From Capitulum mitella (Eukaryota; Arthropoda; Thecostraca; Pollicipedomorpha; Pollicipedidae), in the NCBI GenBank assembly GCA_030062745.1, contig CP099840.1:1364001-1428000 (forward strand): DNA of 64,000 nt. The letters run 5' to 3'. The position numbers and the translations under genes are program-made. Below the pieces are notes generated by a model. It searched no databases. It saw nothing but the letters and a program-made list of their open reading frames with translations, and had not been told where the DNA came from. Positions 10,900-49,700 of the stretch are shown here, piece after piece. Position 1 is the stretch's first letter; the number at the start of each line of letters is the position of its first letter.

Positions 10900-11207
10900 G
10901 CTCGTGGCGTTCATTTCGTTCCGCTGTCGGCGCGGCGCGGCGTCCGCGCAGGAAGACGCGAAACTCCACGTCGTCTGGCCGGGACCGGGCCGCCTGCGTC
11001 CGTTTCGGCGGCCGGGCCCGGAACAGGCGGCGCCGGGCCGAGGCCGAGCCGTCGCCGCGACCGCCCGGCGTCGCCGCGACCGGCCGTGACGGCGCCGTCA
11101 GCGGCGGCCGCGGCCGCGGTGGGCGCTGCCGCGGCGGGGTCGCGGCCGCCGGCCGGCCGCCGCTGTCAGTCAGTGGCCGCTGACATTCGCGGCCGGGCGC
11201 GGGCACC
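10900..11207 (+). promoter_or_regulatory. CpG-rich promoter/5' UTR of the 11.2 kb gene
   Basis: About 300 bases of very GC- and CpG-rich DNA run straight into the ATG at 11208, while the sequence left of 10.85 kb is ordinary. A CAGTCAGT-type initiator-like word occurs at 11166-11173, about 40 bases upstream of the ATG. No TATA box is evident. The position suggests a CpG-island promoter with a short 5' UTR. This rests on composition and position only. Confidence 0.4.
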
Positions 11208-14200
11208 ATGTGGTGGGCGGCCGCCGCCGTGCTGCTGCTGCTGGCCGGCGCCGACGGCGCGTCGAAAGGGGTCCGTCTGCTGGGACCCGTGGAGAAGATG
11301 CGCAGCTCCCTGCTGTGGCTGCGCCACGGGGACGGCTTCTCGGCCGCGCGACGGGAGGCGGTCGCCTCGCGCCGGCCGCACCAGACCTCCGTCAGCCTGC
11401 TGATGCCCCGGCCGCCGCCGCGGCCCAACGGCTCGCGGCCGGCGCGCTCCGGCGGCTGGCTGCTGGGCCGCACCACGCTCTCGATGGCGCGGCTGCCGAT
11501 GCCGCGCCTGCCGGCCGGCTGGCCGCACGGCCGGCGGCGGCCGGCGGCGGACGCTGGGAAGCGTAACCGCCTGCTTCCGGGCGGCCTGCCGCTGAACATG
11601 GAGTCGTCCTCCATGTGGCTCAGTCGACCGTTCCTGTCGCCGCACCAGGCGCTGCCAGCTAAAGTTACCTACCTCCGTCTCTCCGTCCGGCCCGTGCGGC
11701 CCGTTCTGCTCCGGCGCGGTGTCGTCTTCGGGTCGCGGCTAAGTCCCTAAGCTGCGGGTCTGTCTAATGCTTGTCTGGGTTCCCGTCGGCAGTCCCTTCC
11801 CCGTGTCAGTTTGGCGGTCGAAGCCAGCCTAGCTGGGCCTTTCAGCCGGCTAGTCTTGAAGTGACTTCGGGTTGCATAGCAGAGCTGCAGTTCCTTTACT
11901 GAACAACGCCACCTTGTCTGTAATGCGATGCTGATTCACCTCTTGCTGCGGGTTGCGTATCACAGTTCCGGGTTCTGGTTCGTTCGGCGACGCTTGCCAG
12001 TCGCCTGGCATAGACGTCAGCTTGCCTGTCTGCTGGTGTCATTCCTCTGGCTGGGGACGTCAGTACATTTGGCGCAGAAAGTCAAATCGTCCGCTACTCC
12101 GAATAACGTCGAGCGTCGGTTCACTCGGTTCCGGATGCCAGTCCGTCTTGCCCATGTCTTGGCATTTGCCCCGATGGTTGCGGCGCCAGGGTTGTGGTAC
12201 AATCCATTTCTCGAAGTTTCGAGAGCTTACTTCGATTAGTTTTGTGTAGACAGGATATCTCACGATGCTTCGTGCGGATTCACAGGCAGCAAAAAAGCAG
12301 CAAGACTGTTTGACGAAGCGTTTGCTTCTGATGACTTCGGTAAGTTTTTATCTTGCTGGAAGCGCTCATCGTCTCACCGTTTTCACAATGGTAACAAACG
12401 TGTTGTTGTGTTTGACCCAAGAAAACTTTAAAATGTATTAAAATTGCTTTGAAAATAATGAGGAAGCTAATGACATTGTAAATATTGTTTAAAAGTATGT
12501 TATAGTGGGCATAACATCAGGAAAAAACGTCAGTGTGCATGATTTTCGACTATAAACCATGCAGGTATCCACATTGATGACGTTTAACTGTCTGGGGTAA
12601 AAACACATACGTATAGCGACTTTGGCTAGAATTAGCAAAATATTTTTGATTACGTTATAGTGCCACAGGATACTTCATCAATTTGCCTTTTGAGGAAGTA
12701 TATGAAAAACTCCTAAATACATTTGTTTGTATATAAGCGTAGCCTTTTGGTCCGTACATACACAGTTGCTTCGTAGAGCCAGTAAAATCAACGAAAAAAC
12801 GGACCCATTAAGCTGCGGTTCTTATAGCATGTGAGGCTAGGTGTTACACGCGGAATTTTACAATTGGCATAAGCCGATGATGTTCTTGAAAGAGACATCC
12901 CAAGGAAATGGAAGACATGCGAGCCCAAACAGGATATCATGTCTACGAATCAGGTTATTACTTCATAATACCCTTTACCGGATGGCCTGGTGTGAGCATC
13001 ATTATCCACTGTTATAAGGAAAGGTAGTTATGGTGCTTAGATAAAGATACTGAAAGACGCAGCAGGTGAACTTTGCGATTTAGATGAAGAAAGAGAGAAA
13101 GAGAGATAGAGAGAGGGAGAGGGAGAGAGGGATGTAGAAAATGCTGCAGTGCTCTAGTGGGTTGAAACTTTGAGTTTCAAACGTTTTTCGAAATAACCAC
13201 TTTCTTGCTACGAACGGTGAAAATGGCAACATCCATTTTTGCTACAGGGCATTTTGCAAACTTTTCTTGAAACGGCTGTTCTCCGTCGAGTGACAGAACA
13301 GCTTCAGTGAAAGAGCGATCGTCGCCAGTTGTCTCGCTGCCCCCTGGTGGCGATAACCTCAGACCTGGAGACGGTGCCTGGGGCTCTCCCGGCCCCCCCG
13401 GTCGCCCGGCCTCCCGGACGTCCGCTGCCTTTCAGGTCCGGTGATCAAGGTGTCCCTGCACCGCAACGACTCTGACACCGAGAAGCTGGAGCGGATCAAC
13501 AACGCGACCGAGCGGCGCCGAGAGCGACGGGAGCGGGTCGAAGGGGGGGACGACCCCCGCACCAAACGCCTCCGCGAAAAACAGGACACCGAGAGGCACA
13601 CCCTGCGCAAGACGGAAACCAAAGAGCGGCGTAAAGGACTCGGCATTGTCGTCTCCGTGGGTGAGTGGGCGTCGGGCGCATTCAAGCCTGCCTACGGAGT
13701 GCGGCGATGGGTGACAGGGTGGCGTGTGCTTCTCGCGTTGATTCATGACTGAGAAAGCAGCAACCTTCCAGCACGGACGTCAATAGCATTAATGAATGCA
13801 CCAGTATAGCAATCGTTTGCAGCAACGATGAGCTAGAAATTGCGAAGGAATCATGCATCTCATGCTGAACGCGAATCGCATTCCGTTGATCACCATGCCT
13901 CATGAGGAAGAATTCAGCAGCCGTGCCCGCGGTCCGTTCCTCACGCGAGGTATTTAATTTCCCTGCCTCCCGCGTCATCCGCGACGCTGTCGTTCCGGGC
14001 GCCGCCCAGTGGGCGCGCCACGCCCGTCGTCGGGGCGAACCATTCATCCCCGTCGCCCCTAATTGTCGGTCGCGCTGGAAATGTCACCGGCGGCGCCTCT
14101 GGCGCCCGTGCAGGCGGCGGGCCGGCGCTCGCTATCGGAGCCAAACACGGCAAAACCACCACCGACGTCCTGGAGAGGACGAGGAAGCGGCAGCACACCG

Positions 14201-16315
14201 ACACGGACACGGAAGCCGACTCGAAGAGAGGTAGGCCGACGGGCAGCTCGCATTGTCAAAACGAGCTGCATCGTCTTAGCCCGGGCTTAGTTCTTAACTC
14301 CACTTAAATGCGGTGTGTTTTGCTTGAAATCGATGCGGGAGGCCAGTGACCCCTCCCCCAGCCCATACATATCTGAACTGCCGATCTACTCGACCAGTTT
14401 CGACGAAACATGGCTGGAGCTAAAGCACGTGATCTTACTTAATTTTCCATTTGTATAAAAAGGAACAGCACTGACTTCCTCGGGATGGGCAAAAAAGCGT
14501 CAACATCAGATTTTTATTCCGTAACATACAATACCAGATTTGTTCACTTTGTTAAAAGCTTTTTAGCCTGTAGTTAGTATCAAGACATGATGAGAAACAA
14601 TTTCCAGACCAGTTGCTAATTGAGGGTCGTGAGCACAGGAGAGATATTACCAAAAATGTTGCTGTTTTTGCTGTCGGTGTCTGGTTACTACTGGTGTTTT
14701 TGTACTTTTACCTGAATAACTGGGTTAATTTCAGCATCCTTACCAGAGGCGATGGCTACTTTGTATGAGAAACACTAATGGTGCATCCAGGAAACTAAAA
14801 TGGGAGACCATACTGTATGGAAGTGTCAGTGTTGTATTCGGATAACCAAACCGTCGTTCTTACATTCCGTTTCTCTCCTTTATTTTCCCCTGGATCTACC
14901 TGTGAACACGCATGTATAAGTATCTGTCGTGCATGCGATGTCCATGAATGACATTGTGGGGTTGAATTCGATGATGGGAAGCATTGGCAATTGTGAGTCA
15001 AACTCTAGGCCTCCCAAATTACTATACCTGGCTCCGCCCTTGATCCCTACATATGTTCTATAAAACATGGCATTTGAAGAAAAAAACTGATGACTCGTAG
15101 AAAGGTTGTCTACTGAGCCATTCCTTGTTTTCGGCACGCATTACCCACTTACACATGACGTTGCATTGCCCCTAGCCCTGCATTCACCCTTGACAGTATC
15201 CAAATGTTTTTCGGCCATATGAATGGCCAGTTGTCATGAATGTCATGAACTGAAATCATATCATTGCAAAACATTGGTTTACAACACTGATGTCTAAAGT
15301 AGCGAGCGCGTGTCTTAAGCACCCGCAAAATCGCATGACGTGTCTCCCAGAAATGTCTCTTGAAGCCGCCCCTGGTTCACGCAGAGCGTTAAAATTTTGC
15401 TGTCATGTGTGTTAGGCTACCTACGTAGGACCAGTCGCCATATTTCAGCACGACGGCACCGCGGTTTACCTTTGGCGCTCGAAAAACCGCCAGTAGGAGC
15501 CTAATCGGTCCCATCAGTGCGCAGATATCATTAAAACGTCCGGTCTCGTATTACTTGGGACAAACGACAACCATGCGAAAAAACGTTGAGCGACTGACAA
15601 CATGGTGAAATGTATCATGGAAGATTATCATAAAACTCATTAATCAGTCCGACTTGGGGGGGCGGCAGATCGCGTTTTCGGCCGCCAGCGTGTTGCAAAG
15701 TGTGACGAAACTCACCTCTCTCGCCGCAGGCAGCGAGAAAACCAAAGTGAAAGAGCGCAGAGACAGAGCCTCGAAGGACAGGTCTAGAATCGTCAAAGTG
15801 GGTTCTGACCTCGGCGTAACGCTCAGCAATCATGACAACAGGCAAGTGATGAACGGTTGGTGGGAACTAAATACGTAGAACCACTTTGCACACCAGAATC
15901 AGAACATGTGACTTTTTTAATTACGTCATATATCAGAGCCATGCGATGCATTTCACACTGTCGGGTCATATTGTTAATAATTGATCCGCATGCCCGTCTA
16001 GCATAGATGTCCTCGAAAGAACAAAGAATGGGACCATTGCTCTAGATAGCAGTTCGTCGCCGAACAGCGTCATTTCTCTAAGACATGGCGTAGTAAGACG
16101 CCTGTCGGCCGCGTGGCCGGCTATCACCCCCCGCCCCCCCCCCCCTCCGCAGAGAGTCCGGTGACCAGGCAGACCGCGCGCCGGCACCGGAACCGTCCCA
16201 GCCGCCGTCCGCCGCGCCCACCGCCGGCCGGCAGGCGCCGCCCCGCAAACGCGGCATCGGCTCCATGTTCAGGGCGCTGTTTGACCTCGGCCGCAGTCTG
16301 CAGCGTTCCGGATAG
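11208..16315 (+). CDS. secreted basic protein, candidate peptide precursor (6 exons)
   Basis: I do not recognise the family. The start MWWAAAAVLLLLAGADGAS is a clear signal peptide. Exons: 1, 11208 to about 11565-11735 (donor unresolved); 2, 12286-12339; 3, 13436-13660; 4, 14114-14230; 5, 15730-15781; 6, 16153-16315 with TAG. Exons 2-6 have AG/GT borders and agreeing phases (1,1,1,1,2), which strongly supports one transcript. Exon 1 needs a phase-1 donor and has only weak ones (for example AAGC|GTAACC or CGCG|GTGTCG), so an extra small exon is possible. The product is secreted, rich in Arg, Glu and Lys, with a long charged middle (exon 3, KLERINNATERRRERRE) and several polybasic sites (RTRKR, SKR, PPRKR). 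After PPRKR the C-terminus is a 20-residue segment beginning GIGSMFRALF and ending in Gly, as if a processed and possibly amidated peptide. Exon 4 could have a different 5' border. Function unknown. Confidence 0.6.
13087..13131 (+). repeat. (GA)n microsatellite
   Basis: Imperfect GA-rich tract in intron 2 of the secreted-protein gene. Confidence 0.8.
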
Positions 16316-18084
16316 CTCGGACGGTCAGTACCGCCGGCTGCGGCAGCCCGGAGCTCGTGGACGCGTCGGACGGTGTCTTAAGCCGGGCTGGGCCATCAGC
16401 GTGGGAGTGTTTTGAAAGCTGAAGCCAGGGGTATTTTCCGGCAATTTATTCCCTGATGGTCTCATAGAAATAACCTTAAGATTATTTAGAGTTGGTACGG
16501 CCGCCACCAACTTCGCACAGCCGCTACGCTGCCTGCCCTTCGGGCTCCCTCACACGTGTGGTGGTGTGAAAACGGTGAACTGTACCGTCTGATTACTGCG
16601 CGCATTTGTTACGCTCCTTGCTCGGAGATTGCCTGGCATCGGCAAATCAATCATGCTGAAAGCAATAAGGCATCGCCTGATTGCTTCGCACATTTAACAC
16701 ATCACTTGCTGTTCCTGGAATGCACCATGCAAGAAATTTTGATGGAAGGCTGAAAAGAACACGTCCACCTTTCACATATTTCCTTTGTGTCGGTTATAGT
16801 CTATTTACAGATCAGCGAGCGGACAAGTTGTCTAGCATGGTCACGGAATGGCGATCCAGGGCTTCCTGCTCCTTTTGCTAGCATCTTTCGACAACTTCTT
16901 GACGGCAGATCGGTGCTACACTGTTAGTTCCAGGCCATAGACGGTGACCGACACCCCCGACGCGACGACACCAGCGATCGGCGCGATGTCCACGACAGCC
17001 TTGGGAAGACGGTGATCGCAAGAATTTCCGCACGTTTATGACGTGGGAACGTGTCGTCTTCTTCCAATAGTGCGTCTGCCAAGGAAAGACTGCCATTGCA
17101 GATCTGTCATCGGGAAAGCTCGATCAAGAAATGCATCTGTCTTCCCACCCCTGACAAGCAATTTTCTTACGGTGGCCAAAGGACCTGCAATGTAAGCTTT
17201 TGAAATAACACATGTATTTGCCTTGAGCAGAGGCACTAAGTGCTGCACTTCTGATGATTGCCGCAGCAGTCTGCTTCATTTGTGAAGTGAGTTATGTTTC
17301 TGAACAAAGGCAGCCTGTCGGGGTTTCCGGTCTCTTTAGGGCATACTGCACAGTGACTGGCACTGAAACAAAAGTAACTAACAGCTGAGGGATTCTGCTA
17401 TAGCATAACGTCAGAGATGATCGGCCAATTGTTTTCCAGAAGATTCACCTTGCTATGTGACTGCGTTTATATCACCAAACACCGATCGTATTGTTCTTCA
17501 CGTTGCTCACGTGGAGCTCACTCCGGCCTCCACATCCTGCGAGGACATTCAGAATCCAATGAAGACGACGAATCTTGGCACATTACTGTATTTATCCCGG
17601 TGCGTGACAACCGCTGTGCGTGCGTCATGACGCCACTAAAAATCAAGCTTGTGATCAAAACGCACCCACGAGAAGACCCGGCGCCGACCCGACACAGCGA
17701 CCGCGTCTCACTGTGCAGATGGGCAACAAAATTCTGCCACACCAAACACGAGATCCCAGGAGCCATCGCAGCGCAGCTAACGGCGGAGAGCTGAGCAGAG
17801 AACGACCACTTCACGGCAGAAAGGCAAGCCAGGGATGGCGGACATCTGATTTCTTTATCTGTCTGACAAAAAACTTATCAAACTGACTATTTTGTATAAC
17901 AATTTGGATAAATATTTGTGCTGTGTTTTACATGTTGTAATGTTAATGGTCAATGTTTTTTATGAGCTTACTTCAACTGAGCCTTGCAGTCATAATATTC
18001 GTTAACGATTACCATTGTAGGTCATCTTATTGAATGTCATAACAACACTGGAATTAAATAAAGTCAAAAAATGTCCTTGCGGGT
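16316..18084. other. 3' flank of the secreted-protein gene, possible unassigned exon
   Basis: Downstream of the TAG at 16313-16315 no further exon of that gene is needed. A block at about 17600-17880 has open frames on + with a plausible acceptor (CTGTGCAG before 17719) and basic, low-complexity-free content, but no family resemblance. The first clear poly(A)-like signal on + is AATAAA at 18056-18061, roughly 1.7 kb after the stop. This could mean a long 3' UTR or a separate transcript. Confidence 0.3.
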
Positions 18085-46758: not shown

Positions 46759-49700
46759 ATGGCCTCGCCTCGCCTCGCGCTGCTCGTGCTCTGCTGTCTG
46801 CTGCCGCTGGCGGCTGCCGGCTCGTTCTCGGAGCTGCTGGCCGCGCGCGTCGGCCGGCTGTGGCGGCCCTGGCCGCGGCCGGACCCGAACCGCGGCCCAG
46901 ACCGGCTCGGCGCGCTGCGCTCGGTCAGCACGGACCCGCGCCGGCTCGACGGCGGACTCGAGTTCGGGCCGCGGCGCCGCTACCTGCGGCCGCAGCGCGA
47001 CTTCTCCGTGTACAACCGGGCGGCCGCCCAGCGCCGCCGCGACGGCCCGACCCGCGGACTGGCCGACGGCGGACACGGACAGACCAGGGACGGACACGGA
47101 CAGGCCAGGGACGGGCACGGACGTAGCGCCGCGGAGCAGACCAGCGACAGGAATGGACGGTGTAAGTGGGCCACCCGGCCTGAAGGGTGACAGGGATTTG
47201 GTTGCGGTCGCGAACATGATTCGGGAGCGGGAGCAGAGACCCATTTTTGGGTCGCATGCTAATATTTTCTTTTCGCCCGCGTTCTCAACCAAATGCTCGT
47301 CAGATATGAGATGTTTTCATGGAGATGTGCCGCTTCCGACAGACGAATGCATTTTCTAGTGGTATGAAAATTTAATATCCAGCAGATATGACTGGCATAT
47401 GAAAATTCAAATTTCATTCTTTGAGGTGGATTTTCAAAGAGGGGCTTATGTGTCTTGATTTCGGGTTTAAGTCATGAATATTCCGCTATCTCATTCGTCT
47501 TGCAGATATTATTGTCACGTTTGAATTGGACAGGAACGGAGTACCACTACCTGGCGAGTCTCTCAGAAGAGGACGGGCGAGCCGACGCCAGAACTGGTGG
47601 GGAGCTCGAAATTCCCGGCTGTACCGCGAGCGCGTCATTACCTCCGCCTATCCGCTCCGGCAGTTCTGTCGCTGCTGACTCTGGTGCGGTTCGACCACTT
47701 CACCTGCAACAGCTCCACTGGCGAGAACGGCACGTGCTACACGCAGCGCGAGTGCGACCAGATGGGCGGCGTGGCCGGCGGACCCTGCGCCGATGGCTAC
47801 GGCGTCTGCTGCGTCTGTGAGTCGGCAGCCGCACGCTTCGGCCCAAACGTGGCGTTAACGCACCACGACATCTTATCGTCACCTCATTTAATGCATGTAA
47901 TTCGACCTTGCTTCGCGTGGTTTGACTGCACAAAGTGTGCGTTGGAAACAAAACGGTTCAAGAGTACCAAACGCTTTCGAAAGGGAATGTCGGCTGATGA
48001 GCTCCAAGCACAGTACGAGTCAGATGATCAAAACGTGATGTTGATCTTCCTAATGATGAGATCAGAATATGATTTCATGGTTACCATGACTTTTTTAGTA
48101 CCTAAACGGGCTTCACGGTTTGAGCCATGAACAATGCTATTATTCAGCTGTTCCTCATGTCGCAGGACATGTCTAGTCGTGACGCGTGACGGTTCCGAGA
48201 AGTTCCAGTCGTTCTCTGGTGAACCGATCTCGGGTTACGGAGTGCTGCCCTGGCAGGCTAGCTGTGAAATGCCCGCGCCCTGTTCTTGTCCGATCGTGCC
48301 GTTTCCGGTCCGGTGCTAATCACCAGGATGTTCGGTTGTGAAAGAAGCACTGGACTGCAACGCGGCTAAACAGTGGAGCTGTTGGACGGAAACGAAAACC
48401 ATCTGACGGCTTCAGTGCTGCGGTCGATCTACCGGTGCTGGAGGCGTTAATCGTCTGTATAGTCCTTCATAGGGCGGCACAGCTTAGTTTACTTGAATAC
48501 GCCGTACTTCATTAAAACATACCTGATTCTGCTAATGGCACACTGGCATTCACATTCGGTATATTGCTAGACTTTTCAGCTATCAATAAACGTTAGGTCT
48601 GAAGGCTCATTTTGGCTGGATTCTGCCTTGGACCTTAATTGAGCTCGGAAAAGCGATGAATGGGGCTTCGGCTAATTCGGTCTGCCGTCTATTTCGCGTG
48701 AAAGGCTTATTTTTCCTGAAGCAGACTTATTTCCCAACAGAATTCCAATTTAAAGTACATTGAACTCGGCGGCGTTGATGCATTGATTAAGAAATCACAT
48801 TGGAAGCTGCATGAGCTAGACCCAAAACAGGGGTTTCAGAGGAGCAGAGTGCATGTTAGGAGATGCAGAGGGTGTGAAACTGATGGAGAGAGGGAAAGGG
48901 ACTGGGAAAGAGAGGGGAAAAGAGAGAAAGCAGACAGCCTCAGTTTTAAAATCAATAAGATGCCTCATGGGGGGGGCATGGTGAGTGACGTCTATTCCGT
49001 TTCTCGCTTGATTTGAGAACATATTTTCATATTGTTTCACAAATTATTCTCTTTTTGGGCATTTCATAGTACAAACTGATGTGTATCGATCCTTTTCGGC
49101 ATTTTGCAACTAAAGGATTGCAGGCTTAAGCGTCACGTATGTCCATGATATTGTTTGCTGTCCTTACTGAATAGGCCAAAAACGTGTAGAGAAAAAATGC
49201 TTAGAAATGCGAACATTACTCACGGAATAGCTGTGTTGACAAAACAGATTGCAAGCTGACGCATTGTGAATATAAATCCATAAGCCTGAATAATTCAGCT
49301 GCATTTTAGCAAAAATTTGGTGACTCGATGGCAAGTGGTTGCGAAGTTATTAGCCTCCGGAGAGCGTGACGACCTGGAACGCCCAGGCCGGCCGCTCAGT
49401 TCGATTCGTTCTGTTAGTTGAAGTAAGACCTGGCTCACGGCCTCGCTTGCCGTGGCAAATTGCCACGGAGAAAATCTGAAACCATGGTAACAGTTTATAT
49501 GCTACTGGATGGCGCACTTGAATGCTAGCACTTTCAGTACTTTCATTTGGTTGAATATGTTTGCGGCTTTAATGTCTTTTAGTATTCTGCAGTTATGGGT
49601 CATCACTCTGTTTGATGCTGGTTTATCCCTAAAACATGAACATTTTCATTGGAAACGGCATTAGGTGTAAGCGTTCGAAAACTCTCTAACCAAAACGACT

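Follow-up and report, generated by a model that had tools for sequence, protein, structure and literature searches.

An undescribed gene of the barnacle Capitulum mitella for a probably secreted, basic protein with a relative on contig 3 and a predicted amphipathic tail

We analyzed a 64,000-nucleotide stretch of the genome of the barnacle Capitulum mitella (assembly GCA_030062745.1, contig CP099840.1, positions 1,364,001 to 1,428,000 of the forward strand), referred to here as the window. An undescribed gene for a secreted protein lies on its plus strand at 11208..16315, and we have very little doubt that this gene is real. Our preferred reading of the product, to which we assign a probability of about 0.42, is a basic proprotein that is secreted, belongs to an orphan family of two copies, and carries a cationic tail that is specific to this copy and is perhaps released as a peptide of the defense type.

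The gene was predicted to have six phase-consistent exons. Coding potential was scored by codon frequencies derived from Pfam-supported exons in the window (MFS, EMC4 and olfactomedin; 544 codons in all), and each stop codon was scored as -12 bits. For splice weights, start-site weights and generic amino-acid frequencies we used general values. Exon 1 (11208..11663, with a provisional 3ʹ end that could lie as far downstream as 11742) encodes the putative signal peptide and a proline/arginine-rich N-terminal part. Its ATG at 11208 is the sole ATG within 10900-11215, begins an open reading frame (ORF) with a hydrophobic leader, and ranks 35th of 1177 plus-strand ATGs for start context by the start-site weights. 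Exon 3 (13436..13660, phase 1/1), placed by its codon frame and by the relative described below, encodes the conserved core, and is followed by exon 4 (14114..14230, phase 1/1), exon 5 (15730..15841, phase 1/2) and the last exon, exon 6 (16153..16315, phase 2), which ends in the TAG at 16313-16315. In exons 1, 3, 4, 5 and 6 the coding frame is the best of the three plus frames, by margins over the next of 125, 64, 26, 23 and 29 bits, respectively, and it leads by ~20 bits when the last 20 codons are scored alone. In exons 1, 3, 4 and 5 it is also the top frame of all six. One minus-strand frame trails it by 5.4 bits in exon 5, exceeds it by 1.1 bits in exon 6 (-300.1 vs -301.2), and lies 1.8 bits below it over the last 20 codons. 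Only one plus frame of exon 5 is open, and this, together with the phase of the exon 5 donor, fixes the frame of exon 6. An alternative frame of exon 6, in which the TAG is bypassed and a donor-like site near 16325 is reached, was rejected, being 29 bits worse.

The splice sites bear out most of this structure. The donors of exons 2, 3 and 4 rank 17, 24 and 57 of the 3594 GT sites in the window, and the acceptors of exons 3, 5 and 6 rank 49, 17 and 13 of the 3570 AG sites; the acceptors of exons 2 and 4 are unremarkable, at 749 and 668. The final intron is of the GC-AG type, and its donor, CAG/GCAAGT at the end of exon 5, ranks first of 4238 GC dinucleotides. For exons 2-6 the frame is open throughout and the phases are mutually consistent, so that this part of the original prediction stands, as do the ATG and the stop; exon 2 and the end of exon 1 fared less well. 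Exon 2 (12286..12339, phase 1/1, encoding GSKKAARLFDEAFASDDF) has no support from codon usage (-112.3, vs -106.7 for another frame), and we accept it because of its donor at 12340 and the matching RLFD exon in the relative. An additional exon between exons 1 and 3 was rejected; all candidates scored below 0, including exon 2 itself (-10.2). Exon 1 lacks an acceptable donor: no site in its ORF scores above -1.6, except one 5 nt past the ATG. The best phase-1 donor, at 11719, scores -3.2, and the coding signal weakens near 11657. A crude gene finder of our own recovered exons 3 and 4 and, once the donor limit was lowered, the start of exon 1; it did not recover exons 2, 5 and 6, and the whole model was not reproduced.

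The product very probably enters the secretory pathway. The signal-peptide score of the ATG at 11208 is reached by only 4 of the 413 ATGs followed by 40 open codons, itself included, as judged by a simple heuristic and not by SignalP; the signal peptide of the original prediction thus holds up. So does its highly charged precursor, which is free of Cys, with a predicted isoelectric point (pI) of 11.4-11.6 and a grand average of hydropathy (GRAVY) of -0.80 to -0.95. Candidate processing sites include N-glycosylation sequons in exon 1 (NGS, 11427..11435) and exon 3 (NAT, 13501..13509), a furin-type RERR in exon 3 (13519..13530), and PPRKR, the proposed basic cleavage site, in exon 6 (16238..16252). 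The RERR site had not been named in the earlier work. The structure model of exon 1 is poor, with a predicted local distance difference test (pLDDT) score of 57.6.

The precursor has no detectable relatives in the databases searched. Pfam returned no family up to an expectation value (E) of 10, the single match being at 0.88, and no cathelin domain; PDB sequences gave no match up to E 1; exon 3 has no relative in a bacterial genome collection; and ten peptide strings are absent from the literature searched. To this extent the gene is the orphan it was claimed to be. It is not a singleton, however: contig 3 carries a related gene whose exons match. A search of the 477-Mb assembly (16 contigs) with exon 3 found one other place, C3:9481091-9481306 (E 1e-4), and the exon there (G000:C3:9481091-9481312) in turn retrieved the window exon (E 2.9e-4), with two more matches at E > 2. 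The two exons align without gaps over 74 residues, 26 of which are identical; in the other two frames, 19 and 20 residues are identical and stops are present. Codon positions 1, 2 and 3 are identical at 37, 42 and 34 of the 74 codons, vs 22.2, 17.7 and 28.7 for shuffled codons, and the third position is not above chance (P 0.10). Positions 1 and 2 are kept and position 3 is not, and we therefore conclude that selection acts on the protein.

The further exons of the relative, and its phase-1 introns, were read from the DNA by eye and then tested where possible. Its exon 2 encodes GSSLDDDDLSPRGSAQRLFDRQLFDSDQ, is phase 1/1, and has RLFD in common with GSKKAARLFDEAFASDDF; 343 of 20000 shuffles aligned as well. 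The exon 4 pair, which shares TTTD, gave E 0.009 in a single comparison and was equaled by 12 of 3000 shuffles in global alignment and 42 of 3000 in local alignment. Exon 5 of the relative lies at the same place, also changes phase from 1 to 2, and ends similarly. Common to both genes, besides RLFD and TTTD, are PVI.VSL.R, a sequon (NST in the relative, in the same columns as NAT), an Arg cluster with R-X-R-R (RSRR in the relative, two residues further on than RERR) and V.GG..PR, all in exon 3. Over exons 2-5 the copies differ in Lys content (18 in the window copy, 3 in the relative) and in sequons (two and seven, respectively). The joined reading of the relative drew no Pfam match at E up to 10. 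Taken together, the exon comparisons make a two-member family very likely, and the part common to both copies is, on the same comparisons, the core, meaning exons 2-4, to which exon 5 is added by place and phase only. No duplicate of the olfactomedin neighbor in the window turned up at E up to 0.001, and there is therefore no sign of a duplicated block, one gene being a weak test. A genome study shows 16 chromosomes for Capitulum mitella and Pollicipes pollicipes and reports an ancient genome duplication (PMC11331182).

At the 5ʹ end of the relative, an ORF with a signal peptide (L003 5908) and the frame with a good-looking donor are out of register by one (L003 5908-6246), which may reflect an assembly error or a broken gene. 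The stretch between these two frames is Pro/Thr-rich. Homology between the end of the window exon 1 and exon 1 of the relative was unsupported (1064 of 3000 shuffles global, 1604 of 3000 local), and a genome search with the window exon 1 gave 14 non-self matches, none below E 0.25. At the 3ʹ end, the possible exon 5 donor of the relative, AG/GTGAAG (L004 2211-2216), overlaps an in-frame TGA, and the relative may therefore simply end there. An exon-like stretch at L004 8272 was considered as its last exon and found unsupported; phase and frame disagree by eye.

The tail of the window copy, GIGSMFRALFDLGRSLQRSG (16253..16312), is the feature on which the proposal of a released peptide depends. 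Its 20 residues carry a charge of +2 and end in Gly, and their hydrophobic moment, 0.659, was reached by a fraction of only 0.00055 of 20000 shuffles. Among the 899 stop-closed ORFs of at least 40 residues in the window, three ends reach this moment, the tail included, and the tail alone combines a basic pair and a final Gly with an end of 15-30 residues whose moment is 0.6 or more. AlphaFold, given exon 6 alone and without relatives, predicted a helix over residues 35-51, with a mean pLDDT of 92 over residues 41-50 and 72.6 over the whole model. The tail is thus predicted to be a positively charged, amphipathic helix that follows a basic pair, much as had been proposed from its one-faced pattern of hydrophobic residues.

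What is the function of such a precursor? We propose that the signal peptide directs the proprotein into the secretory pathway, a step to which the sequence points strongly, and that the core of exons 2-5 would bear N-glycans and be cut by a furin-like convertase within exon 3, at RERR in one copy and RSRR in the other. The recurrence of the site at almost the same position in the two copies makes this cut plausible; judging from the motif, we give it an even chance. The last exon would supply the copy-specific tail. Cut off after PRKR, the tail would be a free cationic amphipathic helix of 20 residues, or a 19-residue amide if PAM takes off the Gly. Release of the tail, read from the same kind of motif, is somewhat more tentative than the cut in exon 3. 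The weakest step is the last, in which the freed helix would act on membranes as a defense peptide and the conserved core would be its pro-part; taken on its own, a membrane-acting defense role for the helix is unlikely.

This arrangement has precedents. In cathelicidins the pro-domain is conserved and the last exon encodes a cationic C-terminal peptide that varies. The gene described here would resemble them in a conserved, putative pro-part and in a candidate cationic C-terminal peptide encoded by the last exon, and is unlike them in that the precursor has neither a cathelin domain, as judged by Pfam, nor Cys. A more specific proposal, that barnacles independently arrived at a cathelicidin-like plan in which two duplicated genes share a glycosylated, furin-cut pro-domain and an exchangeable last exon gives each a different C-terminal effector, in the window copy a cationic amphipathic helix, is in our judgment quite unlikely. 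In the myticalins, linear cationic antimicrobial peptides of mussels, the signal and pro-part are kept while the mature peptide varies (PMC5577615). Likenesses to the myticalins are a signal peptide, a cationic linear mature part (predicted, in our case), a dibasic site, a phase-1 intron and, perhaps, the design of conserved pro-part and variable peptide. In contrast, the mature peptide of myticalins is central and Pro/Arg-rich, whereas ours would be a C-terminal amphipathic helix; the comparison is one of published descriptions. No convincing second copy of the tail was found, but a defense role can still be entertained because the myticalins show that the pro-part of a defense peptide can be conserved while its mature part varies.

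Several observations weigh against a released defense peptide in a two-copy family. The original prediction saw the design of a prohormone or host-defense precursor; the cationic amphipathic helix after a basic pair fits that design, but the number of basic pairs is what a composition so rich in Arg would give by chance. In 358 residues of the joined exon peptides, signal peptide excluded, KR, RR and [KR]R occur 5, 9 and 14 times, vs 3.4, 7.7 and 11.0 in shuffles (P 0.17 for [KR]R), and we reject them as evidence for a prohormone. Furin requires Arg at P4, which PRKR lacks, making it an incomplete furin site. A net charge of +2 is low for a defense peptide. The homology of exon 5 is not significant (451 of 3000 shuffles global, 1164 of 3000 local, and no BLAST alignment), and genome searches with exons 4 and 5 missed the relative: exon 4 retrieved itself and one match at E 1.64, and exon 5 only itself. 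The last exon gave nine non-self matches in the genome, none convincing; the best, over residues 4-37, has E 0.17, and one extends across residues 6-51 (L015, E 0.65). Among the plus-strand ORFs of L004 2150-9900 (30 or 34 residues and longer), no ending like the tail was seen by eye. With no counterpart of the last exon found in the relative, nothing shows that selection acts on the tail.

An alternative explanation is that the protein is structural or adhesive, of the cement, cuticle or shell matrix type, with its basic, low-complexity, beta-prone core as the product and the tail as just a C-terminus. We consider this somewhat unlikely in itself and nearly as likely as a proprotein with a releasable tail. 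The genome is that of a barnacle, and the protein contains a weak internal repeat: the end of exon 3 plus exon 4 resembles exons 5-6 in a comparison that 24 of 3000 shuffles equaled. This is the best of nine comparisons between exon stretches, of which two fell below 100 of 3000 (24 and 87) and the others gave at least 497. The pI of 11.4-11.6 and the absence of Cys can be set beside the high pI of barnacle cement proteins, the internal motif repeats of several and the glycosylation of CP-52k, features given in two reports (PMC8561864, PMC12472103). CP52k, CP100k, CP19k and CP43k are also described as secreted, basic in several cases and duplicated in barnacles (PMC8561864, PMC12472103, PMC5099703). 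Against a structural role, the GRAVY of -0.80 to -0.95 lies below the range of -0.55 to 0.55 listed for CP52k homologues in one of these reports (PMC8561864). The composition differs from that of CP52k, CP100k, CP19k and CP43k, a distinction drawn from published descriptions: the protein has no Cys, unlike CP20k, and no dominance of Gly, Ser, Ala or Thr, unlike CP19k and CP43k as described.

Could the tail instead be a signal? A neuropeptide or hormone precursor with an amidated C-terminal helix would also have a signal peptide, no Cys, a basic site, a C-terminal Gly and a predicted helix. We rate it lower, as improbable, because the part common to both copies is the core and not the peptide. 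Hormone precursors usually conserve the peptide. There is, moreover, a single candidate peptide, with no convincing second copy in the genome, the basic pairs are at chance, and neither Pfam, PDB nor the ten peptide strings revealed similarity to a known hormone family. A survey of barnacle neuropeptides predicted 16 families from known arthropod peptides (PMC3462748).

Marginally less probable still is a tail that stays attached to the secreted protein as a C-terminal membrane or granule sorting helix. Amphipathic C-terminal helices occur in peptide-processing enzymes, and the predicted helix of the tail would suit such a role, but a basic cluster immediately precedes it and nothing else bears on sorting. 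An error at the ends of the gene model, with exon 1 belonging to another transcript or containing an assembly error, or exon 6 in another frame, would account for the unusable exon 1 donor, the out-of-register exon 1 frames of the relative, the exons missed by our gene finder and the 1.1-bit lead of a minus-strand frame in exon 6, but is very improbable given the 29-bit and ~20-bit margins over other plus frames in exon 6 and its last 20 codons, the exon 6 frame set by exon 5, and a possible donor in the relative at the matching place and phase (by eye).

Whichever role is correct, this is a secreted gene family without detectable Pfam or PDB relatives in barnacles, whose settlement, adhesion and fouling are subjects of study. 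A released tail would be a new peptide open to testing; should the core alone be what counts, the family would be a candidate component of the barnacle secretome. The paralogous pair provides a clean test of selection on core versus tail.

Upstream of the gene, TCAGTCAGT (11166..11174, plus strand) contains two TCAGT motifs that start 42 and 38 nt 5ʹ of the ATG and resembles the arthropod initiator consensus. A TCAGT starting 39 nt before the ATG is also found at a second secreted ORF, at 46759. There, at 46759-47162 on the plus strand, a second CpG-island first exon encodes a clear signal peptide (MASPRLALLVLCCLLPLAAAGSF...) and an Arg/Pro-rich stretch, followed by a GT donor. Paralogy between the two was rejected: with the low-complexity filter there is no match at E up to 10, and without it matches occur in other frames only (best E 0.0005).

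A scan of the neighborhood covered ten ORFs, five of them without a family. The other Pfam-supported neighbors in the window are all on the minus strand: MFS at 19.8-21.2 kb, EMC4 at 24.7-25.1 kb and olfactomedin at 37.2-38.3 kb. Near the relative lies a minus-strand ORF with a CYTH domain (L004 2823-3497). Minisatellite-like repeats, seen by eye in the ORF lists, occur near both genes (window ~40.8-42.3 kb; L004 6720-6975) and encode peptides of the GSGQPQRVWP or RSPG.KRALSVTRG type.

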